Shown here piece after piece: positions 31,643-50,658 of a stretch of DNA of 64,000 nt; position 1 is the first letter of the stretch; each line of letters starts with the position of its first letter. The notes beneath the pieces are model-generated. The model searched no databases and was not told the origin of the DNA. It saw only the letters and a list, made by a program, of their open reading frames with translations. The translations under genes were made by a program, and so were the position numbers. Source of the stretch: Psychroflexus salis (GTDB lineage Bacteria; Bacteroidota; Bacteroidia; Flavobacteriales; Flavobacteriaceae); assembly GCF_014640175.1 (NCBI RefSeq), contig NZ_BMGL01000007.1:124001-188000 (forward strand), read 5' to 3'.

Positions 31643-31667
31643 GCTCCCCCTCAAAGACTCGAACTTT
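31643..31667. repeat. Left attachment site (attL)
   Basis: A 25-bp exact copy of the 3' end of tRNA-Asn, starting GCTCCCCCTCAAAGACTCG. The following sequence (TTTACTTAAT) no longer matches the tRNA, which marks the crossover limit. Confidence 0.9.
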
Positions 31668-31715
31668 TTTACTTAATATATTCATTTTTAAATAGTTGTT
31701 GACTCGTTAACTTAA

Positions 31716-31736
31716 TTGGTTACCGAATTGTATACC
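31716..31736. repeat. Left terminal repeat (possible integrase arm site)
   Basis: A 21-bp sequence beginning TTGGTTACCGAATTGTATAC recurs with one mismatch at 50459-50479 near the other end of the island, in the same orientation. Subterminal repeats of this kind often bind the integrase arm domain. Confidence 0.6.
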
Positions 31737-31777
31737 TTTTAATTAATTTATTTAAAATTTTATTTTTCAGTTTATAT

Positions 31778-32641
31778 CTATTTGTAACCGAATGACCTTG
31801 TTAATTTCTCTTTATTGAACTTGTCATTAAAAACCTTTATTTTTCCTTTGAGTTTTACTTTTGAAAAATCAAAATTGTCTAACTGACTTTTAGAAACTAA
31901 TATATTACCACCAACTTTTTTTAATGATGACACATCATGACAAGTAGTCTTTCGTAAGTTTAGATTGCCTTTAACTTCTTCCAAAGATGCTAAAGATACA
32001 TGTGTGTTCTTTAAATTTAAATCTCCATAAACTTTATTTAATGGATTAATGGAATTTAAATTTTCTTGATACACGTGATTAGAAAACCATAAATCTCCAA
32101 TCACTTCGGTTAAGCTACCAAAGTCATTTAATTGAGTATCAATTCCTAGAGTACCTTTAATTTTTTTTATTTGTCCAAATGATTTAATAAAATTTTCTTG
32201 TAATAACCCATTACGATTATGGTATTTATCTCTAACAATTATGTTACCATGGATAATTTGAGTTGCGAGCACTAAAAAATATTTTTTATTGTCTCTTTCA
32301 ACCTGCAATAAAAAAGGATTTCTGTTCAATTCTGGTAATTCGAAAAGTGTTTTAAATTCTTCAACTATATAACCTGTGGTATCTTTTAGCCAGTTAATGG
32401 CAATTTCTTCCTGAGCTTTTTGAGTTAGATTAAACTTACTAGGAAAATCAGGTACTTTTACATCAGGATGTTTGTGAGTAGATATTATCAGCTCTCCTTT
32501 TTTTATGATTTTGTCTGTTGTTTCGTCAGCTTCAATCTCTAATCTTTTTAAAATATCATCTTCTTGAACTCTAACTGAAATATTTGTAAGTGTTTTAAAA
32601 GGAATACCGTTTTGATCTATGTAGTTGTAAATTTTAAACAT
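31778..32641 (-). CDS. Hypothetical protein with short solenoid (L-x-V-x-G-(D/N)-L) repeats
   Basis: A 287-residue cytosolic protein of unknown function. After about 150 residues without a recognisable domain, the C-terminal part has at least five units of about 20-22 residues: 'IKKIKGTLGIDTQ', 'LTEVIGDLWFSNH', 'LNKVYGDLNLKNT', 'LEEVKGNLNLRKT' and 'LKKVGGNILVSKS'. Similar leucine-rich-like solenoids occur in phage and island proteins and usually mediate binding. It is the last gene at the left edge of the island, 179 bases after hsdM, and may belong to the same cargo block. I do not recognise an enzymatic domain. Confidence 0.6.
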   Translation of the reverse strand: MFKIYNYIDQNGIPFKTLTNISVRVQEDDILKRLEIEADETTDKIIKKGELIISTHKHPDVKVPDFPSKFNLTQKAQEEIAINWLKDTTGYIVEEFKTLFELPELNRNPFLLQVERDNKKYFLVLATQIIHGNIIVRDKYHNRNGLLQENFIKSFGQIKKIKGTLGIDTQLNDFGSLTEVIGDLWFSNHVYQENLNSINPLNKVYGDLNLKNTHVSLASLEEVKGNLNLRKTTCHDVSSLKKVGGNILVSKSQLDNFDFSKVKLKGKIKVFNDKFNKEKLTRSFGYK

Positions 32642-32820
32642 CTAGGTTATTTAAAGTATTCAACATACTAGATAATATTTTTTATAATTTCTTACTCATT
32701 ATAATATTCAAAAGCATCAACTCTTTTTTTAAAAGGAAACTTTAAACAATTTTCTATAATAAAAAATGACTTATAGTTTTAGTACTATGAATATTGAGCT
32801 CCAACTAGTCGTATTTTATT

Positions 32821-34344
32821 TTACTTTTTATCTTCTTGAATTACATCAACAATGCTTCTAAAGCTATTTAGTCCAGATTCTAGGTTTTCCATAATCTCAT
32901 TGGCTAAAATATCGGGGTCAGGTAAATTTTCTAAATCAGTTAAGCTTTTATCTCTCAACCAAAATATGTCTAGGCTTGTCTTATCTCTGGCAATGACTTC
33001 GTCGTAAGTATATTTTTTCCATCTACCATCTTGATTATCTTCGCTCCAAGTTTCTTCCCTTTTAGCAATATTTTTTCCATTATAGAGCTCAACAAATTCT
33101 TTCAGATGCTCTTCACGCATTGGACTTTTCTTTGGGGTATGATGTACGTTTGTTCTGTAATCATAAAACCAGATTTCTTTTGTCCAAGCTTCTTTACTTG
33201 CTGGTTTATTAGTAAAAAACAACACATTGGCTTTCACGCCTTGTGCATAAAAAATCCCAGTTGGTAGTCTTAGTATGGTATGTAAGTTAGTTGTTTTTAA
33301 TAATTGCTTTCTCACTTCCTCACCAGCACCTCCCTCAAACAATACATTATCAGGAAGAACAACAGCTGCTTCGCCATTAATTTTTAATTGTGTTTTTATG
33401 TGCTGTAAAAAGTTTAGTTGTTTATTTGAAGTAGTCTCCCAAAAATCCTGACGATTATAACTTAAATCTTCTTTTTCAACATCACCCTGCTCATTCGTAG
33501 AAGTCATGGTGCTTTTCTTTCCAAAAGGTGGATTAGCTAGTACATAATCATATCGAGTGCCATCATCTGATACAAGAGCATCATTTGGACTTATAAATGA
33601 TTCTCCGTCAATCTCTCCAATGTTATGTAAATACATATTCATTAAACACATTCTACGGGTGTTGGCAACTATTTCGTTACCATAAAAAGTTTTGTTTTTA
33701 ATGAATTCTTTTTCTTCTCGGTCTAGGCTGTGATTCTCTACTATCCAGTCATAAGCAGCTAAAAAGAAACCACCTGTACCACATGCGGGATCTGATATGG
33801 TTTTTAAAGGTTTAGGCTGAACACAGGCTACCATTGTTCTTATCAATGCTCTAGGGGTAAAGTATTGACCTGCGCCACTTTTAGTGTCTTCTGCATTTTT
33901 CTCTAGAAGTCCTTCATAGATTTTCCCTTTTATGTCAGCTCCCATCATCGACCAATCTTCCTTGTCTATAAGATTGATGACTTTTAAAAGTTTAGCTGGG
34001 TCTTGTATCTTATTTTGACTTTTGGTAAAAATCTGCCCTAATGTTCCTTTTTCTGTAGATAAAGTCCTTAGTAATTGAACATAAAAAGATTCTAGCTCTG
34101 CTCCTCGTTTGCTAGATAGGGTTTCCCAATTAGCAACTTCTGCGTCTTCAACTTCATTGCCTTCTACATCTTTTAGCTTAGGAAACTCTAAACCCTTATT
34201 GTATGGTGGCTTGTTGAGTTCATCTGCCATCTTTAGAAATAACAAATAGGTAATTTGCTCTAAGTAATCTCCATAGCCTACACCATCGTCACGTAGTACG
34301 CTGGCAAGGTTCCATATTTTTGATATTATTGTTGAGTCTGTCAT
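32821..34344 (-). CDS. hsdM: Type I restriction-modification methyltransferase HsdM
   Basis: A 507-residue N6-adenine methyltransferase subunit. The N-terminal HsdM helical domain (about 5-130) is followed by the SAM-binding motif DPACGTGG (185-192) and the catalytic NPPF (271-274). With HsdS it methylates the recognition sequence, and with HsdR it forms the restriction complex. The gene is full length with both motifs intact. It starts two bases after the RhuM-Fic gene, so the fusion protein sits inside the hsd operon between hsdS and hsdM. Confidence 0.95.
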   Translation of the reverse strand: MTDSTIISKIWNLASVLRDDGVGYGDYLEQITYLLFLKMADELNKPPYNKGLEFPKLKDVEGNEVEDAEVANWETLSSKRGAELESFYVQLLRTLSTEKGTLGQIFTKSQNKIQDPAKLLKVINLIDKEDWSMMGADIKGKIYEGLLEKNAEDTKSGAGQYFTPRALIRTMVACVQPKPLKTISDPACGTGGFFLAAYDWIVENHSLDREEKEFIKNKTFYGNEIVANTRRMCLMNMYLHNIGEIDGESFISPNDALVSDDGTRYDYVLANPPFGKKSTMTSTNEQGDVEKEDLSYNRQDFWETTSNKQLNFLQHIKTQLKINGEAAVVLPDNVLFEGGAGEEVRKQLLKTTNLHTILRLPTGIFYAQGVKANVLFFTNKPASKEAWTKEIWFYDYRTNVHHTPKKSPMREEHLKEFVELYNGKNIAKREETWSEDNQDGRWKKYTYDEVIARDKTSLDIFWLRDKSLTDLENLPDPDILANEIMENLESGLNSFRSIVDVIQEDKK

Positions 34345-34346
34345 CT

Positions 34347-35318
34347 TTATTTATTTCTATTTAATACGCTAATTACTAACCGTTTTACGATTTCCATTTC
34401 TTCTGATTTGCTTGAAGCTATAAAAAGGGTTAAACTGGCTAGTGTATCATTACTAATTATAGGTTGATTTTTTGTGTTGAAAAGCATGTGATTTTGTTGT
34501 AAAAACTTAAGAAAACAGGCGGCTGCAATTCTTTTATTACCATCTACAAATGAATGGTTTTTTACAATTAAATATAAAAGCATTGCTGCTTTTTCTTCTA
34601 AGCTTGGATAAAAGTCAACTTCACCAAAGCCTTTGGTAATTTGCGCTACAGAACTTTGAAAGCCTTTATCTTTTTCTTTGCCAAATACATCAGTGTCAAA
34701 TTCGGTGAGCATTTGACGAATTAGCTTTTCATAATCGTCTAAACTTGGGTATTTGGCTTCTTTGGTTGTGAGTCCTTGCGTGTCTAGTTGTTCGTGGTCG
34801 TAATCGTCTAACAAACTTAAACCTTTAGAAAATTTTGTTAGCCATTCATTATCTGCTGCTTTCTCTTCAATGGCTCTGCTTAAGATTTGAATGCCACTTT
34901 TTAGTAGCTGAACTTCTTGTTCTTTTTGCGCCAAACGTTTTTCGTTAACGGCATATCCTTTTACCAAATAGTCTTTTAAAACACGATTTGCCCAGATTCG
35001 AAATTGTGTTGCACGTTTAGATTTTACACGGTAACCCACCGAGATTATGGAATCTAAGTTATAGTGTAGCTGCTTTCGTTTTACGGTTCTTGTTCCTTCT
35101 TTTCGAACTTGTAAGAAATCCTTACAAGTTGCTTTTTCATCCAATTCTTGGTCTTTGTACACACTTTTTAGATGCATTGTAATATTTTGAGGTGTAGTCT
35201 CAAAAAGTTCTGCCATTTGTGCTTGAGTAAGCCAAACCGTATCCTGCTCAAATTGTACGTTAATTTGAGTAGTACCATCATTGGCTTTGTAAATCTCTAT
35301 TTGGTTTTGTTTATCCAT
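34347..35318 (-). CDS. RhuM-Fic/Doc fusion protein in the hsd operon
   Basis: A 323-residue two-domain protein. Residues about 1-125 form a RhuM-type domain ('VQFEQDTVWLTQAQMAELFETTPQNITMHLKSVY', then 'LHYNLDSIISVGYRVKSKRATQFRIWAN'). Residues about 185-320 are a Fic/Doc domain with the motif HSFVDGNKR at 255-263 (His255), a Doc-type form of HxFx(D/E)GNxxR. Fic enzymes transfer AMP or phosphate to target proteins. Such fusions are often found in type I restriction operons, but their role there is not settled. It starts 38 bases after hsdS and ends two bases before hsdM. No separate antitoxin (inhibitory SxxxEGN helix) gene is seen next to it. Confidence 0.88.
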   Translation of the reverse strand: MDKQNQIEIYKANDGTTQINVQFEQDTVWLTQAQMAELFETTPQNITMHLKSVYKDQELDEKATCKDFLQVRKEGTRTVKRKQLHYNLDSIISVGYRVKSKRATQFRIWANRVLKDYLVKGYAVNEKRLAQKEQEVQLLKSGIQILSRAIEEKAADNEWLTKFSKGLSLLDDYDHEQLDTQGLTTKEAKYPSLDDYEKLIRQMLTEFDTDVFGKEKDKGFQSSVAQITKGFGEVDFYPSLEEKAAMLLYLIVKNHSFVDGNKRIAAACFLKFLQQNHMLFNTKNQPIISNDTLASLTLFIASSKSEEMEIVKRLVISVLNRNK

Positions 35319-35356
35319 TTATTTTTTTCCAACTATTGCAATTTTTACACAAGTTG

Positions 35357-36757
35357 CTACTTCTTTTTCTCTTTTTTTATTTTTTCCAACAACACACTAG
35401 CTGGCTCATAATCGGGCTGAGCTTTGCATTGAGCAATTTCTTCTTCACTTAACAATTTACCTTCAAAAGCTTTTTTAAGAATGCTCTGGCGCAAGGCTTT
35501 AGCTTTTTCCAAGCTCTCACTAATATTTTGCTCTACAGCATCACAAACCGATAAACGAGATTCTATTTCTTTGACGATTTGGTGTTGTTCTGTCATTGTT
35601 GGAACTTGTATTGGATAAAGTGCAATTTGGTCAAATTTAACTCGCGGTTTGTCTCCAGCGGATTGGTTATTTGACCAATGAACAAAATCTTGCTGATGTA
35701 ATATAAGTTTTAAATAATTAGGATTAAAACCTTTAATCGTTTCTAAAATTATAAATTCCCCTGAAGCAACACCTTCATATTCTGCTTGATAAACTTTGTT
35801 TAGGTAAGGTCTTAAACGACCATATAAAACGTGATTCGTATTGAACCAATTTCCTGCACTTTTAAATTCCTTGAATTTGTATGTAAAATAAGGTTTAAGA
35901 GCATTTTTTTCTAAACAGTCCATACCAATAAACGGAAATTCTGGTGCTTCTTCAGGCATCATTTTGTTTGAAATTTGGAAAACTAATTCACCCAAGTTTA
36001 AAATAGGTAATGTGCTTGATTGTTCAATTTCTGGGTAATCAATGAGCTTTTTAGGTTTCTTTGGCTTTATTCCTACTTCTTGATTTTTCTCCCAAGCTTT
36101 AACAGCTTCTTTCCAAACAGTTAATTGTTGTTCATAGTGCTTTTGTCGTTCTTCTTTTATCTTATCTAACAATTCTTCAGCAGAAGGTAAGTTTGTTTGT
36201 TTTTCTCTCCATTCTTTCGTCAACTCCCCCTCAAACGCTTTTTTCAACACCGCTTGTCTATAAATTTTGAGTTGCTCTTGTGCTTTTTTAAGGTCGGCTA
36301 TGCCATGGTCTAAATCTGAAAATAAGGCTTCTATTTTTTTGACGATTGCTTTTTGGATGGGAACAGATTTTAATGGAAAGTATTCTTTTTCAATATGTTG
36401 ATAATGTCTTGCATATCCATTATCCTTTATTTTGAATACTAAAACTTCTGTTATATAAGATAAATATTTGGGTGATATATGCTTTTTTGGTTGTAAAACT
36501 TTTGTTCCATCTGCTCCTGGTGCAAAGGGAAAACTAACAAGTTTTACATTTTTTGTGTGGTCTCCAAATACAATTACTGGTAATTTACATTCGAGAATTT
36601 TATCTTTATCATTAGTATATCCTCCTATAACATTTTGACCTTGGTCAATAACAGGTATTTCTCCAATCTTCAAATACTCTTTCTGCTTTAATTTTTGTTT
36701 TGTAGTGGAAATTTTAAAAACAGCATCTTTATAATTTATTAGGCAATCTTCTTCCAT
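35357..36757 (-). CDS. hsdS: Type I restriction specificity subunit HsdS
   Basis: A 466-residue specificity protein with two target-recognition domains (about residues 15-135 and 245-395), each followed by a conserved helical spacer. The spacers share the repeated segment 'LKKAFEGEL' (171-179) and 'LKKAFEGKL' (427-435), the usual internal symmetry of HsdS. It sets the bipartite DNA sequence recognised by the complex. The recognition site cannot be read from sequence. No short DNA repeats or inverted partial copies that would suggest phase variation were noticed. It starts 12 bases after the 276-residue protein. Confidence 0.92.
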   Translation of the reverse strand: MEEDCLINYKDAVFKISTTKQKLKQKEYLKIGEIPVIDQGQNVIGGYTNDKDKILECKLPVIVFGDHTKNVKLVSFPFAPGADGTKVLQPKKHISPKYLSYITEVLVFKIKDNGYARHYQHIEKEYFPLKSVPIQKAIVKKIEALFSDLDHGIADLKKAQEQLKIYRQAVLKKAFEGELTKEWREKQTNLPSAEELLDKIKEERQKHYEQQLTVWKEAVKAWEKNQEVGIKPKKPKKLIDYPEIEQSSTLPILNLGELVFQISNKMMPEEAPEFPFIGMDCLEKNALKPYFTYKFKEFKSAGNWFNTNHVLYGRLRPYLNKVYQAEYEGVASGEFIILETIKGFNPNYLKLILHQQDFVHWSNNQSAGDKPRVKFDQIALYPIQVPTMTEQHQIVKEIESRLSVCDAVEQNISESLEKAKALRQSILKKAFEGKLLSEEEIAQCKAQPDYEPASVLLEKIKKEKKK

Positions 36758-36769
36758 TATGCTGCTTAT

Positions 36770-37600
36770 TTAAAATAATTTAGTTTGAATATCTTTTTTA
36801 GGGTAAAATACGCCTATAATGACAAAAGGATTTTTTGACCTTCGGGTGTGCCACTCTTTGGTAGTTCCCAAGAATAGGTAGATGTCTTTGTTGTTGATAA
36901 AGTTGGTTTCGTATTGTTGGCGTACTTTTTCTAAAGCAATGGTTTCATCATTATTGGAATTTTTTAAGCAATTCCAATAGAGCTGCCCAATTTCCCAATC
37001 TTCTATCATCAAATTTCGTTTTTTACCTGTTTCATCTTCAAATTCGTACTTAAACTTATAAGGCACTTTTGGGAAAGCTTTTTCAGGTGTTTGCTTTTCA
37101 TCTGCAAACAAATCCATTTGGTTTTGCAGTGCTTGCCACACAGGTTTCCATTCGGATTCGTCTTTTTCTATAAGTAAACGATGAATTTTTGCAGGTTTAA
37201 ATGTAGCTAAGGATTTGTTTTGGGGAGCTTTGCTTTCTTCAATTAATGTATTCATGTTGGTATATACATTATTGAGACAATAGTTTTTTCGCAACTGCCA
37301 ATTTTGTTTTGTATCTAAGGTTTCACCTACTGCTAAATCTTGAAACTCATAATCTTTAGGAGAATAACTTTCTGGTCTAAAATCGTCTGTACGTTTTTTT
37401 AAATCAAGTTCAATCCAGGTGTATTTTGTTTGTTTTACTTTTCCTTCTTTTTTTAAACCTTTCAGAAAACTTAAAGGCATAGGATAAATTCTTATCCATT
37501 CACCATTCTCTAAAACTCCTGCTGTACAAACCAGTTCATCATAACTTCTTGAAGGAAGTGGGTAAGTGGTTACGGTGAGCAAGACTTTTTTTACTGGCAT
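36770..37600 (-). CDS. Uncharacterised protein paired with a DUF488 protein
   Basis: A 276-residue soluble protein I cannot assign. It begins MPVKKVLLTVTTYPLPSRSYDELVCTAG, then GEWIRIYPMPL, a pattern that reminds me of OB-fold nucleic-acid-binding proteins of the 'dual-OB' kind; this is tentative. The middle contains a charged region (about 165-200) and the end has 'IYLFLGTTKEWHTRRSKNPFVIIGVFYPK', which looks like another beta-rich strand set. There is no signal peptide or membrane segment. It starts two bases after the DUF488 protein and ends 12 bases before hsdS. It is therefore an integral part of the hsd operon and probably works with the DUF488 protein. Confidence 0.6.
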   Translation of the reverse strand: MPVKKVLLTVTTYPLPSRSYDELVCTAGVLENGEWIRIYPMPLSFLKGLKKEGKVKQTKYTWIELDLKKRTDDFRPESYSPKDYEFQDLAVGETLDTKQNWQLRKNYCLNNVYTNMNTLIEESKAPQNKSLATFKPAKIHRLLIEKDESEWKPVWQALQNQMDLFADEKQTPEKAFPKVPYKFKYEFEDETGKKRNLMIEDWEIGQLYWNCLKNSNNDETIALEKVRQQYETNFINNKDIYLFLGTTKEWHTRRSKNPFVIIGVFYPKKDIQTKLF

Positions 37601-37602
37601 TT

Positions 37603-38487
37603 TTACAGATGGATTAATTCGTATTTAAATTCTGGCAACCCACAGATGGCTTCAGCTAAATGTTTTCGGTGACATTGGCAGATGTCTTTTTCAAAACAAG
37701 TAATGGCAACACGGTCATGTTTTTTAATTAAGTCATGAATTTGTTCTTGTTGACTTATCGTTTTTGGAATCACAGTTTTTTTGTACTCTTCAAATAAAAT
37801 ATCGTAGTCTTTTTGGGTATTTAGTTCTTTTCTTTTATCAGAAAGAATCCCCACTTCTGGAACATGTAGAAACTGAATCCCTACGCCTTCACAAGCCATT
37901 TTTAACTGAGATTTATTGAATCCGTATTTCATGCTAAACGAATTCTTCCTTACATCACATAGAACTTTCACATCAGCTTTCAACAATTTATTGATATATT
38001 GTTCAATGCTTATTCCTTCATAACCAATTGTAAAAAGCGCATTTTTCGAAGATTTTGGAATTTGCTTTTTCACCTTTTTCAATTCATCACTATTTAATAC
38101 TTGATGAGCTATTTTACTATTAATAGCGTAATAAGGAAAGTTACGGTATGTGTGTTTTATTAAATATTCAGATGATTTATCAGTAAAATGTTTTTTTAGC
38201 TCAATCAATGCTAATTTGTCATTTTGTTTTAATTCATTGATGTAGGATTGCGTTGTAGTTCTTTTCCATGATTTAACATCTTCAGTTACCCATTCATATT
38301 TACGCATGGTAGATAAATCTGCATTAGCTTGAAATGAAAAGCAACCATATTTATAGGGTACAAAATAGTAACTTGGTTTTTCTTGTTGCAAACCTAAAAG
38401 CATCAATAGTTTTTGAAGCTGAAATTTTTCAAGTTCATCATCAAATAATTCAAGCATTGACAATATAATTTTTCTTCTATAAAACAT
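37603..38487 (-). CDS. Panacea/DUF4065-like plus DUF488 two-domain protein
   Basis: A 294-residue protein with two parts. Residues about 1-140 contain 'LQKLLMLLGLQ...YYFVPYKYGCFSF', a pattern I associate with the Panacea (DUF4065/SocA-like) antitoxin domain; this match is by eye. Residues about 150-292 are a DUF488 domain with TIGYEGIS, LCDVRKNSFS, FLHVPEVGI and the cysteine cluster CFEKDICQCHR (Cys264, 270 and 272). DUF488 has been linked to type I restriction and nucleotide-related islands, but no biochemical role is known to me. It lies 57 bases after hsdR and two bases before the 276-residue partner. The fusion is unusual and is treated as a finding. Confidence 0.65.
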   Translation of the reverse strand: MFYRRKIILSMLELFDDELEKFQLQKLLMLLGLQQEKPSYYFVPYKYGCFSFQANADLSTMRKYEWVTEDVKSWKRTTTQSYINELKQNDKLALIELKKHFTDKSSEYLIKHTYRNFPYYAINSKIAHQVLNSDELKKVKKQIPKSSKNALFTIGYEGISIEQYINKLLKADVKVLCDVRKNSFSMKYGFNKSQLKMACEGVGIQFLHVPEVGILSDKRKELNTQKDYDILFEEYKKTVIPKTISQQEQIHDLIKKHDRVAITCFEKDICQCHRKHLAEAICGLPEFKYELIHL

Positions 38488-38544
38488 TTTCTAATTTTAA
38501 GTAATATGCAAAAATAACAATTTGTTATGTGCATATCATGATAC

Positions 38545-41358
38545 CTAAGCTACTAATACTTTATTCAATTCATCGATTACTATTTCCATGTCATTTCCAA
38601 ACAGTTGATACATTTTACCTCTGCCACCTTGGTTATCGAAAGGCGTATAATCTAAATCGTCAATCTCGATATGATAACTACTCACAATATGGTCTTTTAT
38701 CATTCGTAACCATTGCATTTGCTCTTTGTTGAATCTATTGTGTTTTCCTGCATTTTGTTTAAAAATCCAGTTTTTAAAGTTTTCATCGATAGTTTTATCA
38801 AAGGCTACAAGTTTACTGTCAATTCCGCATGCTCTTCTAATTAAAGATACTAGGGCAGTGAGTTCATCTTTAGGCTGCTTGCTTTTCACCTCTTCAATTT
38901 GTGAATAGGCATCCCAAACATAATCTGGTGCTAATAAAGGTTTTTCCAACTTCATTTTTTCCATTACCTCTTTAATCATTTTGAAGGTGATTTCCCTTCT
39001 GTTATAAGGTTGATTATAAAAGATGCTCAAGGCTTTTATTTCATCTTTGTTGGCTTCTAAATACGCATTAAAATCTTTAATTACTGCTTTGGCTTTATCT
39101 ACAGAATTGGTGTCCCATTCACTTTTAGTCACCGTATCTATATTGACATGGTCAATAATTTGTTCGTGAATTTTTCTAACATTTTCAAGGTAGTCATTAA
39201 ATTCTCCATTAAACGTTTTGCTGGCTTCATTTATTAATTCTTCCTGAGCTTTCTTTTTGGTTTCTTCAACTCGTGTTGGTGTTCTGTCCTCAATAGGAAT
39301 TTTATCAATTTTAGTTTGGGCTTTCTCATTAATGGCGTCCTGGTCAAAAGCTGTGATGAGCTCTTTTGTAATTTGCTTTAGGTTTTTACCTTTAGATAAT
39401 TCAAGAATTTTATCTTTCTCTTTATCTGTAATTTGCTTTTCCAGACGTATCAAACGATTGGCTAAAGACAAAAACAAATCTTCTTCTGCCACACCCATTG
39501 TAATGGCGCCAAGTAAATCCTTCATCGCAACACTTGGTTGGCGTTCTAAGGGTCTGCTATCTGTTTTCTTGGATTTGGTGGCACCTACAGCATCTACAAT
39601 AACAAAGTGTGTTTTACTATTTGCCGTTCGGGATACCAATTGTAGTGAATCTTTATTAATGGTTCTAGTTCCTCTCCCTTTCATCTGCTCAAAGTAGTTG
39701 ACACTTTTTACATCACGCATAAAGAGCAGTACTTCTAAAGGCTTTACATCTGTTCCTGTAGCTATCATATCTACTGTCACTGCAATACGTGGATGATAAG
39801 AATTTCTAAATCTATTTAAGACTGACTTGGGATCTTCTTCAATTTTATAAGTTACTTTTTTACAAAAATCATTGCCTTCATCAAATTCTTCACGGATGAT
39901 TTTTATAATGTCATCTGCATGACTATCGGTTTTGGCAAAAACTAAAGTTTTTGGTACTTCATAGTCTCCGTTTTCATCACTTCTATTTGGGAAAATTGTG
40001 GTTTTTAAAGCTCTTTTATATTCACGTATTATATTCCTGATCTGACTAGGATTGACTACTTTTTTATCTAAATCGTTGCGTTTATACTCGGTATCTTCAT
40101 CTTCTTGTTGCCACCTTTTCTTTCTAGTTAGCTTATCCCGCCTATCTACAAACCAACCTGCTTTAACAGTCTCTCCCTTTTGAGAAATTTCAGTTTCAAT
40201 TGTATAGACATCATAGGGTACATTTACTCCATCAGTCACAGATTCTTCATAAGTATATTGGCTTACTACATTTTCATTGAAGAATCCAAACGTTCTTTTA
40301 TCAGGAGTAGCGGTTAATCCTATAAGGAATGCATCAAAATAATCTAAGACTTGCTTCCATAAATTATAAATGGAACGGTGAGCTTCATCTATTACAATAA
40401 AGTCAAATTGTTCAATAGGCACTCTTGGCGTATATTCCACAGGAATAGCCTTCTTTTCAGACATTTTACTTTTCAGCCAACTACTTTCATTAGGATTATC
40501 TTGTTCAGCACTTTCTTCTAGTTCTTCTCCCTTTAAGATAGAATATAGGCGTTGTATGGTAGAAATAGAGACTTGGCTATCAGTCGCTATATAACTTGAA
40601 GTTAATCGCTGTACGTTGTATAATTCAGTAAATTTTCGGTTATCATCATTGGGCTGAAAAGTCATAAATTCTTGCTCAGCTTGTTCACCTAAATTTTTGG
40701 TATCTACCAAAAACAAGATTCGTTTAGCATCTGCATGCTTCAGCAATCTATATACAAAAGTAGCAGCTGTAAATGTTTTCCCAGCTCCTGTAGCCATCTG
40801 GATAAGAGCTTTTGGTCTGTTTTTTTTGAAAGAATGCTCAAGGTTATTTATAGCAACTATTTGAGCAGGTCTTAATCCAGTTTCATCCAAGGCAGGCATT
40901 GAGCGCAATCTCGCTCTAAGGCTTTTCTCTTTTTTAAGCCATTCTGCAATTGTTTCAGGCTTATGAAACCAAAATACTGCTCTACCTCTGGGTTTTGGGT
41001 CTCTATAATCCGTAAAACGAGTTATAGTACCAGTGCTTTCGTACACAAAAGGCAAAGGGTCGTTGTTTAAATATTTTAGTTTTGCGTTTGCGTATTTAGA
41101 AGATTGTTCCTCAACAACTGTAAATCTATGTCCTTCATCTTCTCTTTTGGCTTCAATTATACCAACAGGCTTCTTATCTACAAAAAGCACATAGTCAGCA
41201 GGTCCAACATCAGTTTGATATTCTCTAACTGCTACACCTTTACCTGCAAATAAATCTATTTCATTTTTAGATTGAACCAACCATCCAGAATGAACTAACA
41301 TTTTATCGATTCTATCTCTCGCTATTTGTTCAGGGTTTTGGTTTATATTTATGGACAT
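38545..41358 (-). CDS. hsdR: Type I restriction endonuclease/translocase HsdR
   Basis: A 937-residue motor-nuclease subunit. The N-terminal PD-(D/E)xK nuclease core is visible as D55, then E69-A-K71 ('VGIIEAKRE'). The superfamily 2 helicase follows with Walker A ATGAGKT (189-195), DEAH box (324-327), 'GTDVKPLEVLLFM' and 'QMKGRGTRT' motif VI, and then an EcoEI-type C-terminal domain. It translocates DNA and cuts unmethylated invaders after HsdS-directed recognition. It is first in the cargo operon, hsdR to hsdM, and all catalytic motifs look intact. Confidence 0.95.
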   Translation of the reverse strand: MSININQNPEQIARDRIDKMLVHSGWLVQSKNEIDLFAGKGVAVREYQTDVGPADYVLFVDKKPVGIIEAKREDEGHRFTVVEEQSSKYANAKLKYLNNDPLPFVYESTGTITRFTDYRDPKPRGRAVFWFHKPETIAEWLKKEKSLRARLRSMPALDETGLRPAQIVAINNLEHSFKKNRPKALIQMATGAGKTFTAATFVYRLLKHADAKRILFLVDTKNLGEQAEQEFMTFQPNDDNRKFTELYNVQRLTSSYIATDSQVSISTIQRLYSILKGEELEESAEQDNPNESSWLKSKMSEKKAIPVEYTPRVPIEQFDFIVIDEAHRSIYNLWKQVLDYFDAFLIGLTATPDKRTFGFFNENVVSQYTYEESVTDGVNVPYDVYTIETEISQKGETVKAGWFVDRRDKLTRKKRWQQEDEDTEYKRNDLDKKVVNPSQIRNIIREYKRALKTTIFPNRSDENGDYEVPKTLVFAKTDSHADDIIKIIREEFDEGNDFCKKVTYKIEEDPKSVLNRFRNSYHPRIAVTVDMIATGTDVKPLEVLLFMRDVKSVNYFEQMKGRGTRTINKDSLQLVSRTANSKTHFVIVDAVGATKSKKTDSRPLERQPSVAMKDLLGAITMGVAEEDLFLSLANRLIRLEKQITDKEKDKILELSKGKNLKQITKELITAFDQDAINEKAQTKIDKIPIEDRTPTRVEETKKKAQEELINEASKTFNGEFNDYLENVRKIHEQIIDHVNIDTVTKSEWDTNSVDKAKAVIKDFNAYLEANKDEIKALSIFYNQPYNRREITFKMIKEVMEKMKLEKPLLAPDYVWDAYSQIEEVKSKQPKDELTALVSLIRRACGIDSKLVAFDKTIDENFKNWIFKQNAGKHNRFNKEQMQWLRMIKDHIVSSYHIEIDDLDYTPFDNQGGRGKMYQLFGNDMEIVIDELNKVLVA

Positions 41359-41500
41359 TGCTTTCTGGTTATTGTATTTGCAAAATACATAAATTAAATG
41401 AAATGTTTATTTAGGCAAAGCTTAGGATTTTAAACTAATGTAGTTTTAAAGTAAATATCGATTAAATCTAACTAAGAATAACCAATGTCCAACAACAAAA

Positions 41501-41532
41501 AAGGCTAGCAAATCAATGCTAACCTTCTTTTT
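41501..41532 (-). terminator. Terminator of the replication block
   Basis: AAGGCTAGCA (41501-41510) and TGCTAACCTT (41517-41526) form a stem with one mismatch. Read on the minus strand it is followed by six T residues, about 25 bases past the homing-endonuclease stop. It separates the replication genes from the restriction operon. Confidence 0.75.
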
Positions 41533-41550
41533 TAATCTATTTATTAGGTA

Positions 41551-42198
41551 TTATTTAAAAATCCATTTATACCCCCCTGCAGATTTACGCTCATTTCTGC
41601 ATACTTTGGCAATACAGGATTTGTTTATTCCAGTTGATCTAGAAGCTTCAGCAATAGATTCAAAGATTTCTACTCCATAACCATCAAGTGTTAATTGTAT
41701 TATTTTCTTTTTTCTTGAATCTTCTCTCTGTAAAACTTCATATAAATCATATGACCAATAAAAATCTCCTGCTGTATTAGCATAACCTAAGCAAGCGTTG
41801 CTTATAGCATTCTTAGTTAATCCAACTGATGCTGCTGCAGCTTCTAATGATTTAAATTGACTTACTAATTCTCCTGTTTTAATATTGTATTGATAGACGG
41901 ATTTTTTTATACCGCCACCCCTATCTGAATTATAACCGTTCTCAACGCAATTGTACTCTAATATGTACTTTGATTCTTTTCTAGCAAGTTCATCTACTGA
42001 GCTTGCTGTATCAATGGTTTCCCATTCAAATGCATCTTCTCCATAAGTTGCAATAGCTTCATAAAATTTACCATCTTCGTTTCTATTAGCTCTTTCTGTA
42101 TGGTCTAGCTTTCTCTGTTCTACTGAATAAGTAGTAGCTCCAATATAGCTTTCGTTAGTAAACTTGTTTGTTGTTTTGTAAATTTTAAATTTTCTCAT
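41551..42198 (-). CDS. GIY-YIG homing endonuclease with NUMOD repeats
   Basis: A 215-residue protein beginning MRKFKIYKTTNKFTNESYIGAT, a GIY-YIG nuclease domain (about 1-85, with Glu in 'ARKESKYILEYNC'). Two NUMOD-type DNA-binding repeats follow: 'VYQYNIKTGELVSQFKSLEAAAASVGLTKNAISNACLG' and 'IIQLTLDGYGVEIFESIAEASRSTGINKSCIAKVCRN'. Such free-standing homing endonucleases spread themselves by cutting sequences that lack them. The ATG at 42198 fits the domain start; the longer frame reads back into the helicase gene. It overlaps the helicase end by 14 bases. Confidence 0.88.
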   Translation of the reverse strand: MRKFKIYKTTNKFTNESYIGATTYSVEQRKLDHTERANRNEDGKFYEAIATYGEDAFEWETIDTASSVDELARKESKYILEYNCVENGYNSDRGGGIKKSVYQYNIKTGELVSQFKSLEAAAASVGLTKNAISNACLGYANTAGDFYWSYDLYEVLQREDSRKKKIIQLTLDGYGVEIFESIAEASRSTGINKSCIAKVCRNERKSAGGYKWIFK

Positions 42199-43657
42199 TT
42201 GCTTGGGTTTTAATAAAAAATTTTCTATAATTAGGTAGAAAATTAATTTTACTAATAATCGAGAATTTATTAACTCCACCAGAAGACGTGGAAATATATT
42301 TGTATTTATTGCCTAAATATTCTGAATAATTTTTTAAAAATTTATGGAACATACTTGTTGAGATTTCACTACCACTTTCTAGTGTTTTATTGTATTTGTC
42401 CTTCAACTTGTTTTTATCATAAATAGTTCCTATTTTGATATTTCGCATCGCAAAATTAGGGAAATTATGGCTTGTCTTATCTTTTAAAATACTTAACGCC
42501 AAATTATCATCCTTAAATTCAAGTCTGCCGTTTTTCAAATAGCTAGAAACACATTTCATCATAAACACATAAAATAAATTCCATTCTTTACTACTCCAGT
42601 GATCTTCAAAAAATAAATTACCAAATTCATCTTCAGGTGTATATTTATCATCAAAATAATTTTCAAGCTCAAACTCCCATCTCCTTCTTCTGTCCGATGA
42701 TCCGCCTGTTCCGTTTACGTAATGATTTGATGAAATCAGCATTTTAGGAGCCAAATGCTTAGGTATTATGAACGCGGATTTACGCTTCTTTTCTACTTCT
42801 ATATCTCCAGTGATTACAGAGAAAAAATCATTTAAATTAACCCCTTTCTTTAGGTCATCATATATGATTATATCTGATGTAATATCAAGTCTTTGATTTT
42901 TAAAGAAACTTCCTTTTTTAATTTCCTTACCATCGAATTGAATAGCTTGTCTGCATTTTCCAATTGCATCTTGAATTAAAGATTTACCAGAACCACCATT
43001 TGCAAGATTATTCTCTCTCATTTTAGCGTCATAAAAAATCACACATCTTCCCGCTTCTTTTCTTCGGTTTCTATGCATTAAATAACCGAGAATAGTCTGA
43101 AAAGAATTGAATTTTTTTTCTATTTCACCTGATATTTTTTTACAAAACTTCTCAAATTGACCAATTTCTTGAGTTTTTAAATAATCACTTTTAAATTCAT
43201 GTTTAATAAGTCTACTTTTCCATATGCAAAATTTCAATTCAGCATATTTTTTAAATACTATTTCGTTTTTATCAATTTCACAAAAACCATTTAAAAAGAA
43301 AAATCTAGAATTATATATTTCATCTCTATCTGAATTTATTTTTACAGGTTTAAGAAAATTCAGTTTACTTTTATTAATATATGATCCTATTCCTTCTATT
43401 AATTTTTGAAGTACTTCTTCTTCATTAATTGCTGTTAGGTGCTCTCTTAAAAAATAGGTAATCTCTTCTATACTAGAAGCATTAATAAGGTTATTATCTA
43501 TTCTTACAATTTCTTCATTTATAACTTTATCTGAACACCTGTAAAATCCATTTAATTCTAAAAAATTTATAAGCTTCATATTGTTAATTTTGATTTTTCC
43601 TTGGGTTTTCTCCCAAAATTTAATTTTTTTCATTTTTAAATTTTTTATTTTGCCCAT
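42185..43657 (-). CDS. SF3-like replicative helicase (phage/plasmid primase-helicase type)
   Basis: A protein of up to 490 residues with a P-loop NGGSGKS (220-226), a Walker B-like IIIYDDL, the sensor segment MLISSNHYVNG and the arginine finger SSDRRRRWEFE. This order is typical of SF3 or D5-family helicases that replicate phages, satellites and plasmids. No primase catalytic motif was recognised in the first 200 residues, so it may be a helicase-only subunit. The start is uncertain: ATGs lie at 43657, 43633 and 43579, and the last gives the compact N-terminus MKLINFLELNGFYRC. The homing endonuclease gene follows. Confidence 0.78.
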   Translation of the reverse strand: MGKIKNLKMKKIKFWEKTQGKIKINNMKLINFLELNGFYRCSDKVINEEIVRIDNNLINASSIEEITYFLREHLTAINEEEVLQKLIEGIGSYINKSKLNFLKPVKINSDRDEIYNSRFFFLNGFCEIDKNEIVFKKYAELKFCIWKSRLIKHEFKSDYLKTQEIGQFEKFCKKISGEIEKKFNSFQTILGYLMHRNRRKEAGRCVIFYDAKMRENNLANGGSGKSLIQDAIGKCRQAIQFDGKEIKKGSFFKNQRLDITSDIIIYDDLKKGVNLNDFFSVITGDIEVEKKRKSAFIIPKHLAPKMLISSNHYVNGTGGSSDRRRRWEFELENYFDDKYTPEDEFGNLFFEDHWSSKEWNLFYVFMMKCVSSYLKNGRLEFKDDNLALSILKDKTSHNFPNFAMRNIKIGTIYDKNKLKDKYNKTLESGSEISTSMFHKFLKNYSEYLGNKYKYISTSSGGVNKFSIISKINFLPNYRKFFIKTQANEKI

Positions 43658-43776
43658 TTATCAGCAGGGCTTTAACTGTTGTGCTCCTAATTTCTTCGGA
43701 TAAATTGAAACACAACACAAAAATACCACAACAACAGACAGTTAGAAGGGGTCAAAAAAAGTCCCCTACTATTCAA

Positions 43777-44532
43777 TCACCGAAATAAAGCTTCGTAAAA
43801 GTCATCTTCCTTAAAAATTTCCTTTAACCTTGTGTAAGCTTTTTCAAAAGATCTAGAAGAGTTCTTAATTTCTCCTATTTTTTTTCTTGAGTTTTTGTAG
43901 GCTTGATGTTCACCGTTTTTAGAATTATAATAAGAAAAATTTTCGTCAATAATTAATCCTAATTCTGCATCTGTGATACTCGGATCAATATGCTTATTTT
44001 CTCTTAGTAGAGTCATTAAAATTAAAAAATCTGATTTACGCCATTTTAGAACAATCCTTTTTTTAAGCATTATTGAATTTGTCATTCTTTTTGACGAATA
44101 GTAGTCTATAACACTATTAAGTTCATTTTTTAGTAAGGCTTTTACATCTGTTGGAAGGTGTTGAGATGTTTCTAATTTTAATAACAAGCCTTGGTAATAC
44201 TTGATTTTTTGTTCAGAATATTTTTCCAAAGATTCATCACCATATATTCCATTAAGTTTAATTTTTGATTTATCAGTTTCAATGTAATATGCACTGAGTT
44301 TTTTTAATTTAGGTTTTAAAAAATCTTTGTAAAAGAACTTTTCAACATATTGATCTTTTGAACTATCTTCAAAATTTGGCTTTTTAATAATGGTAGAAAA
44401 TTCTACTAAAATAGGTTTAGTCAATTTTGTATATTTATCTCTTTCGCTTAACATGTAAAAGTCTTCTTGAACTCTTATAAATTTTTTTTCATTGATTAAC
44501 TTTTGCAAATTAAGTTTTACTGCATGTATCAT
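43777..44532 (-). CDS. Hypothetical island protein
   Basis: A 251-residue, Lys-rich, mostly helical protein of unknown function. The C-terminal third ('KWRKSDFLILMTLLRENKHIDPSITDAELGLIIDENFSYYN...AYKNSRKKIGEIKNSSRSFEKAYTRL') looks like a DNA-binding module with a helix-turn-helix-like segment, but I cannot name a family. It lies just upstream of the replicative helicase gene with a 119-base gap, which suggests a replication or control role such as an initiator or accessory. Confidence 0.55.
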   Translation of the reverse strand: MIHAVKLNLQKLINEKKFIRVQEDFYMLSERDKYTKLTKPILVEFSTIIKKPNFEDSSKDQYVEKFFYKDFLKPKLKKLSAYYIETDKSKIKLNGIYGDESLEKYSEQKIKYYQGLLLKLETSQHLPTDVKALLKNELNSVIDYYSSKRMTNSIMLKKRIVLKWRKSDFLILMTLLRENKHIDPSITDAELGLIIDENFSYYNSKNGEHQAYKNSRKKIGEIKNSSRSFEKAYTRLKEIFKEDDFYEALFR

Positions 44533-44577
44533 ATTTCTATATTTTGTTGACTTGTTAACTTATTTTTCAAAAATAAT

Positions 44578-44609
44578 AAGCCTTACCTATAATTATAGTA
44601 AGGCTTTTT
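44578..44609. terminator. Hairpin between replication sub-operons
   Basis: AAGCCTTAC (44578-44586) pairs with GTAAGGCTT (44598-44606), with an AT-rich self-complementary loop. Plus-strand reading ends in five T residues; minus-strand reading ends in a weaker T-rich tract. It lies between the 81-residue and the 251-residue protein genes. Confidence 0.6.
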
Positions 44610-44703
44610 ACTTCTTACCATTTTCAGTGGTTTTTTTAAGGCTAAAAACCGTCTCAAAAGGTTTGCACCAAAATACAGCATAAAACCTAATATTATATAG
44701 CTA

Positions 44704-44949
44704 TTAGATGATTTCAAAGTGATAATAGTAATAGGGCTTTCCATTAATAATAAAAACAGTGATAAAGCTTTCAGTAACTTTTACTGATTCAACTATGACC
44801 AATTGATTTTTTTTTAAGCTGTTTATATCTCTTTTTACTTTTACTTTAAATGGGCAGATTCTAGTATCAAGTTGATTTGTTTCATCTACAATATAAATTT
44901 GATTAGGCGAGCAAAACTTCAAAATAAAGGCTAGTCTTTTCTTTTTCAT
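44704..44949 (-). CDS. Small hypothetical island protein
   Basis: An 81-residue basic protein with beta-strand character ('QIYIVDETNQLDTRICPFKVKVKRD', 'QLVIVESVKVTESFITVFIINGKPYYYYHF'). It may be a small OB-like or SH3-like fold, but this is a guess. It follows the DUF3871 gene on the same strand with a 43-base gap and ends before a hairpin. Function unknown. Confidence 0.5.
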   Translation of the reverse strand: MKKKRLAFILKFCSPNQIYIVDETNQLDTRICPFKVKVKRDINSLKKNQLVIVESVKVTESFITVFIINGKPYYYYHFEII

Positions 44950-44992
44950 TTAGGTGGATATAAAGTATTACAATCAATAAACAGCTATATTA

Positions 44993-45979
44993 TTAATTTG
45001 GTAAGTACCAAGAAAACTCATCAAATTGCTCTGAATTTGCGATATGCCTTATTATCTCATAAGCATTTACGTTTCGTTCAATATTGTTATCTATATAGGT
45101 GGTCTTATTTGCTTCTGTAAAAAGATTGTACAAGTTCCACAACGAAATATTATTATTTGCATCTCTTTTGAAATTTGGACACTCATAATATTGTTTTACC
45201 GCATGGTTTATTTGCCCATCGTTTAAAAGCATCGGATGTATTCTTGCCTTATCTTTTTTTGATAAATGCTGATACATCCTTGCCTTACCAATAAAATGAG
45301 CAAAAGATTCTTCATCTAACTGAAGTTTAGAAAAACTTTCTAAGGTTGTTAAGTGTTGGTCTTTATCATAAGATTGAAAAAGTTCTATCATTTTATTTTC
45401 TAAATCATCAACTGAACCAACTCTTATTTCATTTGAAAACCCATCTGTTGAAACACAAAGATTTAAGCACACTTTATTTTGAAAACCTATAAAGATTTTG
45501 AATTTTTCTAAGTTCTTTCTACTGTATAGATTTTCTTGATTGTAAGCTCTTACTCCACCTATTGACAAGGTTAGTGGATTACCTGAAATACTTTCTTCAA
45601 TTTGAGTTAGCTCCATTAAAAAAGCACAACGTTCATAATAGATAGTTTTTTCATGCTCCTGGAGCTCTTTTACTGGCTTTCCAATAGCTGTTGGAACTCT
45701 TCCTTTGATTTGATGAGAAACTCTAATATTTGGCTCTGAAACATCAAATCCATTAAACAAATCTGCTATAACATCTTTAGCTTTTTTAATAAATTGATAA
45801 TGTGAAATGGTGGTTTCATTATCTTTTGAAAACACAGGAATTATACAATCATTTTTTAAATGATTAAGCTCTACACTTCTTGTTCTTCCACCTATAAATT
45901 CACTTTTATTTTTAGTTGGGTTGGAATGATTTTCTAAAGCTATATTGGGTGTTTCTTTTTCTACTTTAATTAACTCCAT
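44993..45979 (-). CDS. DUF3871 family protein
   Basis: A 328-residue protein I recognise as DUF3871, a family found mainly in Bacteroidota phages and integrative elements. Recognisable segments are 'IRVSHQIKGRVPTAIGKPVKELQEHEKTIYYERCAFLMEL' and 'NPLTLSIGGVRAYNQENLYSRK'. No enzymatic motif is visible. It follows the Sak4-like ATPase with a 9-base gap, so both probably act in island DNA replication or recombination. Confidence 0.78.
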   Translation of the reverse strand: MELIKVEKETPNIALENHSNPTKNKSEFIGGRTRSVELNHLKNDCIIPVFSKDNETTISHYQFIKKAKDVIADLFNGFDVSEPNIRVSHQIKGRVPTAIGKPVKELQEHEKTIYYERCAFLMELTQIEESISGNPLTLSIGGVRAYNQENLYSRKNLEKFKIFIGFQNKVCLNLCVSTDGFSNEIRVGSVDDLENKMIELFQSYDKDQHLTTLESFSKLQLDEESFAHFIGKARMYQHLSKKDKARIHPMLLNDGQINHAVKQYYECPNFKRDANNNISLWNLYNLFTEANKTTYIDNNIERNVNAYEIIRHIANSEQFDEFSWYLPN

Positions 45980-45988
45980 AATATCTAG

Positions 45989-46834
45989 TTATTTTACAAT
46001 TTGACCTTGTTCTACAATTTGTTCTATTTCATTTTTTTTCTCCATAATAAATGGCTGTATTTGGGATCTTAATCCTGAATATTTTTTGTAAATACTTCTA
46101 AGTTCTTCTAGAGTTTTACAAGTATCTATTTCATTTTCTACATCTTCAAGAGAAATTCCTTCACTGCACCATTCAATTAATTTTTTACCTGTTGATTGAT
46201 TGATTACAAACTCTGGCTGATTCATAAATAAACCTGTTCTATCCTTGGATGCCTTAGCTAAATGATTGTCATTAATCAATTCAAAATTTACCGTAAGCTC
46301 ATATTCATAGCCTTCTCTGGTAACTTCTTTAGTTCCATGTTTAATTACTCTAGTTTTTCCACCCATATTAGAATCTAGTGAGTAGTCTATTTTTCTTCTA
46401 ACTGTAGTAATTAAATGAGCCTTAGAATTAATAATTTTATCTATAAAAGAATTGTGAAGTGGTGTAACTTTAGCCCAATCTTGAAATCTACCACCTAGTT
46501 TTTCATGTATTTCTAAACATCCACCCTTACCAGACCACTCGTGTGTAATGCTATCTACAATTATTACTTTCATACCTGCTTTCTCACAGGTTTCTATTGC
46601 TTTAATATATCTTTCAGGACTAAATGGCTCTCTGATACTTAAAACATTAAAATCTCCTAGATGTGCATATAAGTTGGCGCTGTTGTTTTCAGTATCAATT
46701 ATTGCTATTTTAGACCAGTCATTTGTCATACCATATGCCAAAAGCAATGCACTGTACGATTTTCCAAAACCACTTGCTCCACTTAAACCTACTCTTAGTT
46801 TGACTTGATGTCTTTTTGCTTTTTGTAATTCCAT
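45989..46834 (-). CDS. Sak4-like RecA-fold ATPase (phage AAA_24 type)
   Basis: A 281-residue protein with Walker A GASGFGKS at residues 19-26, a Walker B-like 'MKVIIVDSITHEW', and the segment 'LITTVRRKIDYSL' after it. This is the layout of phage-encoded RecA-like ATPases of the AAA_24/Sak4 group, which promote single-strand annealing during recombination. The C-terminal 60 residues form a charged helical tail. It is first in a short operon with DUF3871, and a terminator lies just upstream of it. Confidence 0.82.
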   Translation of the reverse strand: MELQKAKRHQVKLRVGLSGASGFGKSYSALLLAYGMTNDWSKIAIIDTENNSANLYAHLGDFNVLSIREPFSPERYIKAIETCEKAGMKVIIVDSITHEWSGKGGCLEIHEKLGGRFQDWAKVTPLHNSFIDKIINSKAHLITTVRRKIDYSLDSNMGGKTRVIKHGTKEVTREGYEYELTVNFELINDNHLAKASKDRTGLFMNQPEFVINQSTGKKLIEWCSEGISLEDVENEIDTCKTLEELRSIYKKYSGLRSQIQPFIMEKKNEIEQIVEQGQIVK

Positions 46835-46892
46835 AGTTAAATATTAAGGGTTATCATTTTAAAAATTATAAAGTGTAATCTTGATTATTAAT

Positions 46893-46924
46893 TAAAAAAA
46901 GGGAACTCATTTAAGAATTCCCTT
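46893..46924 (-). terminator. Terminator after the 114-residue protein gene
   Basis: AAAGGGAA (46897-46904) pairs with TTCCCTTT (46917-46924); the minus-strand transcript would end in seven T residues. It separates the 114-residue gene from the Sak4-like gene downstream. Confidence 0.8.
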
Positions 46925-46932
46925 TGCAAGTT

Positions 46933-47277: not shown

Positions 47278-47426
47278 AGTTTTATAAATTTTTTAGATTA
47301 AACAATAAGGGGTATATCCCCAAAACTCAAAAAGAGTGGGGGTTGATAGTTAATTATAGAGCATAACCGTTTAAAAAAAAATTCTGAAAAAATTCTGAAA
47401 AAAAAATTCAAAGCTTACTCAAAAAA

Positions 47427-47453: not shown

Positions 47454-47510
47454 AATTGTTTGTAAGATGGGTAATATGTTAACCCAAATTTCTATATAAG
47501 TAATTCATAA

Positions 47511-50653: not shown

Positions 50654-50658
50654 AATTT

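Follow-up and report, generated by a model that had tools for sequence, protein, structure and literature searches.

Separable cargo of a type I restriction operon in Psychroflexus salis: a RhuM-Fic gene and a PDC-M19 pair with a putative clamp-docking partner

We analyzed a type I restriction operon with three accessory genes, which is located in a 64,000-nucleotide stretch of the genome of Psychroflexus salis (RefSeq assembly GCF_014640175.1, contig NZ_BMGL01000007.1, positions 124,001 to 188,000), referred to below as the window. The operon consists of six intact open reading frames (ORFs), all on the minus strand and spanning positions 32821-41358, in the order hsdR, PDC-M19A, PDC-M19B, hsdS, RhuM-Fic, and hsdM, with gaps of 57, 2, 12, 38, and 2 bases. 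This order and these gaps match exactly those given in an earlier prediction made from the sequence without database searches, and the labels it assigned to the HsdR, HsdS, HsdM, RhuM-Fic, and DUF488 proteins are borne out by Pfam; the range it gave, 34347-38487, covers only part of the operon. A complete set of type I restriction-modification (RM) genes, hsdR, hsdM, and hsdS, is present in a single operon, and the spacing of the genes suggests that the accessory modules share the hsd transcript. The hsd-type matches of these genes to NCBIfam lie below the family cut-offs, and no Pfam match to a HEPN family was found in any of the six proteins. PADLOC already names all three accessory proteins as defense candidates, in entries that carry no function. 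The features of the operon are as follows.

38545..41358, minus strand: hsdR, first gene of the operon, 937 amino acids (aa), EcoEI-like type I restriction subunit (Pfam ResIII 1.2e-39, EcoEI_R_C 5.4e-40)
37603..38487, minus strand: PDC-M19A, 294 aa, Panacea-like domain plus DUF488 (PADLOC PDC-M19A 3.9e-124; Pfam DUF488 3e-23; AF2 mean pLDDT 92.3)
38122..38469, minus strand: Panacea-like half of PDC-M19A, residues 7-122 (hhalign E 4.2e-9 over 116 columns)
37648..38010, minus strand: DUF488 domain of PDC-M19A, residues 160-280 (Pfam; alignment of 23 sequences)
36770..37600, minus strand: PDC-M19B, 276 aa, proposed clamp-docking partner (PADLOC PDC-M19B 1.7e-116; AF2 mean pLDDT 84.1, pTM 0.84)
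37106..37120, minus strand: internal QMDLF of PDC-M19B, residues 161-165, second clamp-binding-like motif (Q161 invariant in 21)
36773..36787, minus strand: C-terminal QTKLF of PDC-M19B, residues 272-276, sliding-clamp-binding-like motif (pLDDT of these residues <50)
35357..36757, minus strand: hsdS, 466 aa, type I specificity subunit (Pfam Methylase_S 5.7e-10; PADLOC Specificity_I 6.9e-66)
34347..35318, minus strand: RhuM-Fic, PDC-S23, 323 aa, Fic/Doc core HSFVDGNKR (PADLOC PDC-S23 9.2e-127; Virulence_RhuM 1.3e-26 and Fic 3.3e-11)
32821..34344, minus strand: hsdM, last gene of the operon, 507 aa, type I N6-adenine methyltransferase (Pfam N6_Mtase 1.2e-71 and HsdM_N; PADLOC MTase_I 4.6e-190)

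The original prediction joined restriction, the DUF488 pair, and RhuM-Fic in one functional unit, whereas most copies of the accessory modules were found to lie away from detected hsd genes. Twenty-eight named loci were obtained when one genome per species was scanned with PDC-M19A (hereafter M19A, and its partner M19B). hsdR lies directly upstream of M19A in seven of them (L012, L013, where it is a remnant, L014, L015, L016, L018, and L034; the map count at ≤300 bp is six, and seven once the edge-truncated hsdR of L012 is included), and no hsd gene was detected within 5 kb of M19A in 20, the stretches of five of which end within about 3 kb of M19A. In a sample of 395 genomes of the phylum, full-length M19A (E 4.6e-73 or better) was identified in 22, including the window's own copy. 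Four of the 21 others are located at most 300 bp from an hsd gene; one of these four, L075 (genome G257), is on the same contig as the named locus L013, and was kept among the 21 and excluded from the tree. An hsd gene occurs within 5 kb of nine of the 21 copies, or of seven if L079 and L083 are set aside, where the low-scoring "hsdM" neighbor, of 1,039-1,055 aa, is probably another methylase. Since the hsd profiles were built from relatives of the window's genes, distant type I families may have been missed in all these counts.

On the M19A tree (49 rows), the distribution of hsd-adjacent and stand-alone copies amounts to four label changes, of which the starred branches force at least four; the bootstrap range was 4-4, and shuffled labels gave a mean of 10.1. 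Inspected by eye, the tree shows a clade of eight copies with hsdR neighbors that also includes the stand-alone L017, while L076 branches beside the stand-alone L081, and L073 and L074 are found beside a different type I operon, so that the changes can be read as three entries and one exit. RhuM-Fic was followed in 31 full-length matches and in genome G276, among the matches listed, and the 32 fetched loci contain 34 RhuM genes of at least 270 aa, two weaker second copies (L094 and L119) included. For nine of these 34 genes, the nearest hsd gene is at most 300 bp away, and for 13 it is no more than 5 kb away; five of the 21 without an hsd neighbor are close to the end of their stretch.

M19A and RhuM are both present only in the window and in L084 among the 122 maps available (121 loci and the window), and the two are combined in one operon solely in the window. 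In L084, the M19 pair and RhuM are oppositely oriented and at least 4.4 kb apart, with RhuM inside an hsd operon. Only three (L018, L034, and L076) of the eight other loci with M19A directly after hsdR extend through hsdM, so that sampling is better for the separability of the parts than for how rarely all of them come together.

The cargo of related operons was surveyed starting from hsdM, by reading 44 of the at least 49 best matches listed (E 8.1e-119 or better), window included; those left out are G442, G306, G303:C51, and two of G445. Complete hsdR-hsdS-hsdM operons occur in 20 of the 40 stretches fetched through hsdM, the rest being incomplete, interrupted, or reordered. Counting ORFs of at least 90 aa, and excluding five operons reached via M19A or RhuM, the hsdR-hsdS slot is filled in 14 of these 20 operons, the hsdS-hsdM slot in nine, and neither in two; these counts are not independent, since eight of the 20 operons come from one genus (g114). 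In three of the 20 (L129, L137, and L146), hsdR is in pieces. The cargo families, assigned from one scanned member per cluster, include a GmrSD_N protein with a PD-(D/E)XK nuclease (L136), AbiEii (L158, in hsdM-hsdS order), a YhcG nuclease (L133), a Schlafen AlbA_2 protein (L147), a helix-turn-helix protein with an IrrE-like peptidase, a DUF5131 cluster (11 loci) and a neighboring cluster of 10 unassigned proteins, and a Fic_N-Fic cluster in six loci, in four of which it occupies the hsdS-hsdM slot, as RhuM-Fic does in the window. Two arrangements were also observed in passing: in L142-L153, a two-gene cargo consisting of an unassigned protein of about 295 aa and a DUF5131 protein recurs between hsdR and hsdS, mostly in genus g114; and in a type I operon of Crocinitomicaceae (L015:3195-8315), M19A is kept while Piwi-domain and SIR2 proteins stand at the place of M19B.

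Neither the 122 maps, the M19A tree, nor the slot survey thus shows the accessory genes to be inherited together with hsd. Scattered modules, together with other cargo or none in the hsd relatives, are the very pattern that the original prediction had named as incompatible with it, and they leave the idea of one unit unsupported. M19A/B and RhuM-Fic are, with high confidence on the basis of comparative genomics, separate and swappable modules and not subunits of one machine.

The operon itself is carried by an integrative element, as indicated by the flanking repeats, the recombinase, and the island-free sites of the same genus.

31644..50683, no strand: integrative element with the operon as cargo, bounded by 24-bp perfect direct repeats (31644-31667 and 50660-50683) at a spacing of 19,016 bp
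49158..50393, minus strand: tyrosine recombinase of the island, beside the tRNA (Phage_integrase 4.2e-17, Arm-DNA-bind_5 1.9e-12)

The right copy of the repeat lies in the 3' end of a tRNA-Asn gene (50659-50733). Six stretches of the same genus were read, out of 18 other genomes matching the right flank, and no island sequence beyond the att region was present at tRNA-Asn in any of the six; in four of them, the DNA beside the tRNA matches the left repeat of the window with its terminator. The further genes of the island encode an AAA_24 protein with a weak Sak4-like match, a DUF3871 protein, and a protein of the phage family phrog_28855, and no structural or conjugation families were found among the island ORFs scanned. 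Two ORFs flank the operon. A 287-aa ORF (31778-32641), 179 bases past hsdM, weakly matches the repeat-type families Recep_L_domain and DUF4097 but nothing in PADLOC, and might be further cargo; a NUMOD-type ORF (41551-43657) lies just upstream of hsdR, and its called start overlaps the upstream 490-aa ORF, which is the phrog_28855 protein.

The RhuM-Fic protein is a full-length match to PDC-S23 (9.2e-127), from which no difference was seen. It combines a RhuM N-terminal part with a Fic core of the usual form HxFxxGNxR, and this core is kept in all 32 members of the family scoring above 400. The name PDC-S23 was not found in the open-access literature.

M19A and M19B in the window match both PADLOC models over their full length (3.9e-124 and 1.7e-116), and their genes are adjacent, 2 bases apart. 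The earlier description of the 294-aa and 276-aa genes as a pair held good: M19B directly follows M19A in 26 of the 28 named loci (it is split into two ORFs in L030), and an M19B match adjoins an M19A or DUF488 match in all 21 genomes having M19B. In 16 of the 17 viral contigs, M19B comes after a Panacea-DUF488 fusion, as it does in the window. Among the plasmid and phage records with M19B, of which 14 of 29 were read, all 12 bacterial and phage loci carry M19B and a separate DUF488 gene, the two being convergent in nine; since these loci have DUF488, whereas the genes examined there yielded no Panacea half, DUF488 rather than Panacea is the constant partner of M19B. In Gordonia phages (L211:3968-5265), M19B and the convergent DUF488 gene are located between the immunity repressor and the integrase. 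Broken or remnant M19B genes were found in six of 21 genomes and broken M19A genes in none of 20 (p = 0.02), a hint that the cost of the pair may lie in M19B. The name PDC-M19 was likewise not found in the open-access literature, and its PADLOC entry has no description or mechanism.

The label "Panacea-like," originally a guess made by eye, was confirmed by comparing a profile of residues 1-146 of the M19A family with one of 22 SocA/Panacea (PF13274) proteins (hhalign 96%, E 4.2e-9), the controls run against the same profile giving 0.06% for the DUF488 half and 0.09% for M19B; there was no direct match of M19A to Pfam Panacea up to E 0.1. In the DUF488 domain, residues D178, R180, C264, E266, C272, H273, and R274 are invariant in the alignment of 23 sequences. 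The top Foldseek matches of the M19A model are two chains (187-188 aa) of the Mycobacterium tuberculosis DarTG complex 7yk3 (probability 1.00, TM by target 0.52-0.53, best E 2.8e-3), which appear to cover the Panacea-like half and which, judging by their length, we take to be the DarG part. Membership in DarTG was rejected, as no macrodomain and no DarT were found and NCBIfam DarG scored 14.1 bits against a cut-off of 250; kinship with DarG is not supported by the sequence profiles (hhalign against 11 DarG proteins, 0.6-0.9%). The remaining structural matches are generic (SRP GTPases, methyltransferases, phosphatases), and no activity is therefore claimed for DUF488. Against PDB sequences, M19A gave a single weak match (E 0.98).

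M19B belongs to no Pfam family; its best match, SU10_MCP, did not pass the cut-off (E 0.041) and was discarded. According to passages of a review, the consensus of bacterial clamp binders is QL(S/D)LF at the C-terminus (PMC9690074). M19B carries peptides of this type in flexible stretches, at its C-terminus and internally, the internal copy being partly in a predicted helix: it starts at the end of that helix and runs into a low-confidence block (residues 161-170, mean pLDDT 62). The motifs were evaluated against a background of 678 proteins of 200-400 aa encoded in the same loci. Of the 39 members of the M19B family, 32 have the strict form Q..[LM]F within their final nine residues, as against none of the background proteins and an expectation of 0.03 of 39 after shuffling; internally, it occurs in 36 of the 39 vs. 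64 of the 678 background proteins, anywhere inside. The internal motif is present in all of the 12 bacterial and phage homologues (strict in 11, QMNIF in one), which come from Cyanobacteria, Proteobacteria, Actinobacteria, and a Gordonia phage, and seven of them have the strict C-terminal one; in the Gordonia phage protein, the C-terminal motif lies 11 residues before the end. The two homologues encoded by Sulfolobales plasmids (L207 and L208) have neither QxxLF motif, and Sulfolobales hosts use PCNA. This archaeal contrast rests on two related proteins (78% identical), since a scan of viral contigs with archaeal M19B gave no relative. In both plasmids, the downstream neighbor of the M19B homologue is not recognized by the DUF488 profile. 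Judging from these motifs, M19B probably binds the sliding clamp.

The structural model of M19B provided a further lead. Its first weak PDB matches are chains of Teb1, RPA, and MCM10 (best E 0.024), and in a viral structure library it matched LEF-3 of baculovirus (best E 6.8e-4, probability 0.97), all of which are single-stranded DNA (ssDNA)-binding proteins with an OB fold; the TM-scores by query are just 0.2-0.3. No match of M19B to PDB sequences was obtained up to E 1.

The clamp-like motifs of M19B and its Panacea-like partner make M19B look like a clamp client paired as in SocAB of Caulobacter crescentus. SocA is described as having a Panacea domain (passages of PMC8832971), and SocB as a replication-inhibiting toxin binding the clamp via a clamp-binding motif (passages of PMC8832971 and PMC9690074). 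M19 resembles this system in combining a Panacea-domain protein with a protein bearing a clamp-binding motif, and differs from it in that M19A carries an additional DUF488 and lacks the GPV motif, the likeness between M19B and SocB being one of motif and not of sequence comparison. RipAB, a Rosmer toxin-antitoxin system of Streptococcus pneumoniae, is a second published case of a toxin acting on the clamp, and its authors state that RipA has no homology to SocB (sections of PMC12795458); it is likened to M19B here by description only. As regards the location, TgvAB, a GmrSD-like modification-dependent restriction system with demonstrated activity, is also a two-gene system inside type I RM genes, in the VPI-2 cluster of Vibrio cholerae, and its position was likened to that of RloF between hsdR and hsdS (excerpts of PMC11411939); M19A and M19B, which are known here from their genes alone, differ from it in having no GmrSD-type Pfam match. 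PrrC is another second system embedded in a type I operon, EcoprrI (passages of PMC12707154 and PMC3710099). RhuM, often fused to DOC, was proposed to take part in multilevel defense within RM clusters by Anantharaman et al. in 2013, so that the layered idea combining RM with RhuM/Doc is already in print (passages of PMC3710099); RhuM stands among RM genes in their neighborhoods as in the window, where M19AB takes the place of their PrrC/RloC-type HEPN companions. In the open-access literature, no paper was found that joins a clamp-binding motif, phage defense, and a toxin; DUF488 and type I restriction occur together only in work on another subject, and the DUF488 passages of PMC12704722 and PMC9674854 have no bearing on the M19 pair.

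The explanation that we favor, with a probability of about one in two, is that a clamp-docking, SocAB-like module is carried as cargo by the type I operon. The operon, on its 19-kb tRNA-Asn element, has two cargo slots, that between hsdR and hsdS being occupied by PDC-M19A/B and that between hsdS and hsdM by PDC-S23. M19B would dock on DnaN via its internal and C-terminal QxxLF peptides, M19A would bind and restrain it, by analogy with SocA and other Panacea antitoxins, and DUF488 might supply an enzymatic step. If an infection disturbed M19A or the replication fork, M19B would, like SocB, bring replication to a halt by acting at the clamp. RhuM-Fic, the Fic core of which is intact, would have a separate action, the modification of a target protein. 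The more tentative component of this scheme, to which we give somewhat less than an even chance, is that M19A/B resembles a toxin-antitoxin system, the harmful part being M19B.

Several observations weigh against this explanation. The 39 M19B members include near-copies, fragments below 215 aa and L088 having been left out, and the M19B model has a helix at residues 153-164, so that the internal motif is only partly unstructured. Among 15 M19B proteins from viral contigs (at least 215 aa), the strict motif is C-terminal in five and internal in 11, and those of L220 and L225 have neither. The model had no PDB match in Foldseek at E 0.001, and no confident fold could be assigned. PMC9690074, in the passages concerned, names repair proteins, among them MutS and MutL, as other clamp clients. 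The Panacea signature GPV is absent from M19A, which has GCF in the window, GCY or GCF in 22 of 23 rows, and GGI in L018; this motif is reported to be critical for neutralization by Panacea (passages of PMC8832971). In the 14 plasmid and phage loci (12 bacterial or phage, two archaeal), none of the genes tested proved to be a Panacea half, and as DUF488 is a separate gene in the 12 bacterial or phage ones, restraint by Panacea is unlikely to be ancestral. Lastly, when cases from the same genus are merged, broken M19B genes occur in four of 19 genomes and broken M19A genes in none of 18 (p = 0.105).

A rival explanation is that the pair is not a toxin-antitoxin system: M19B and DUF488 might process or repair DNA while tethered to the clamp, for instance on ssDNA at forks, to the benefit of the carrier element. 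This interpretation, which we consider rather unlikely, accounts for the two clamp-like motifs and agrees with the appearance of Teb1, RPA, MCM10, and LEF-3 as first fold matches, with the invariant DUF488 residues, which suggest catalysis, with the retention of DUF488 where Panacea was not found, and with the plasmid neighbors of M19B, namely SSB and RadC (L212) and RecT with a PD-(D/E)XK nuclease-like gene (L201). The low TM-scores and the lack of a PDB match at the threshold used speak against it, unrelated folds having been listed among the matches too; moreover, M19 occupies slots that hold SIR2-Piwi, AbiEii, GmrSD-like, and Fic cargo elsewhere, and PADLOC classes the pair as a defense candidate.

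The two other rivals give the hsd genes a direct role. If the RM complex silenced M19AB, RhuM-Fic, or both, and released them when a phage blocks restriction, as in the case of PrrC and EcoprrI (passages of PMC12707154 and PMC3710099), the location inside the hsd operon and the repeated entry of M19AB into such operons would be explained. L017 has apparently left its hsd operon, however, and as most copies of M19AB and RhuM-Fic have no detected hsd genes nearby, inhibition by the hsd proteins cannot be a general requirement; such a guard is improbable. Most improbable of all is a layered system in which restriction, the DUF488 pair, and RhuM-Fic have co-evolved as one unit. The narrow gaps and single direction of the genes, the published idea of layered defense by RM and RhuM/Doc (PMC3710099, in part), and locus L084, where the M19 pair lies 4.4 kb from an hsd operon that runs in the opposite direction and contains RhuM, lend themselves to it. 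Against it, the combination within one operon is confined to the window among the 122 maps, although only three other M19-hsdR operons extend as far as hsdM; for most copies of each module, no hsd neighbor was detected; and the same slots hold other modules. It was rejected on the grounds of the separability seen in the maps, the label changes on the tree, and the alternative slot cargo.

A more speculative extension, which we hold to be doubtful, is that PDC-M19 is a clamp-directed immune module of bacteria, phages, and plasmids, in which an ssDNA-binding-like M19B grips the clamp and halts or marks replication under the control of a DUF488 enzyme that is fused to Panacea in Bacteroidota, and which type I operons have repeatedly captured. 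The two peptides of M19B could in that case bind one half each of the clamp dimer, and one transcript would guard incoming DNA both at entry and at the replication fork. The Panacea assignment, the clamp motifs, and the ssDNA-binding-like lead are new here for PDC-M19, and a nameless pair of defense candidates would thereby gain the sliding clamp as a concrete target, together with a likely logic for how its two members interact. This family of type I operons can be regarded as a rack with two slots for interchangeable defense cargo, such as Piwi-SIR2, GmrSD-like, AbiE, and Fic modules, and reading the genes located between the hsd genes may be a way of finding new defense modules.

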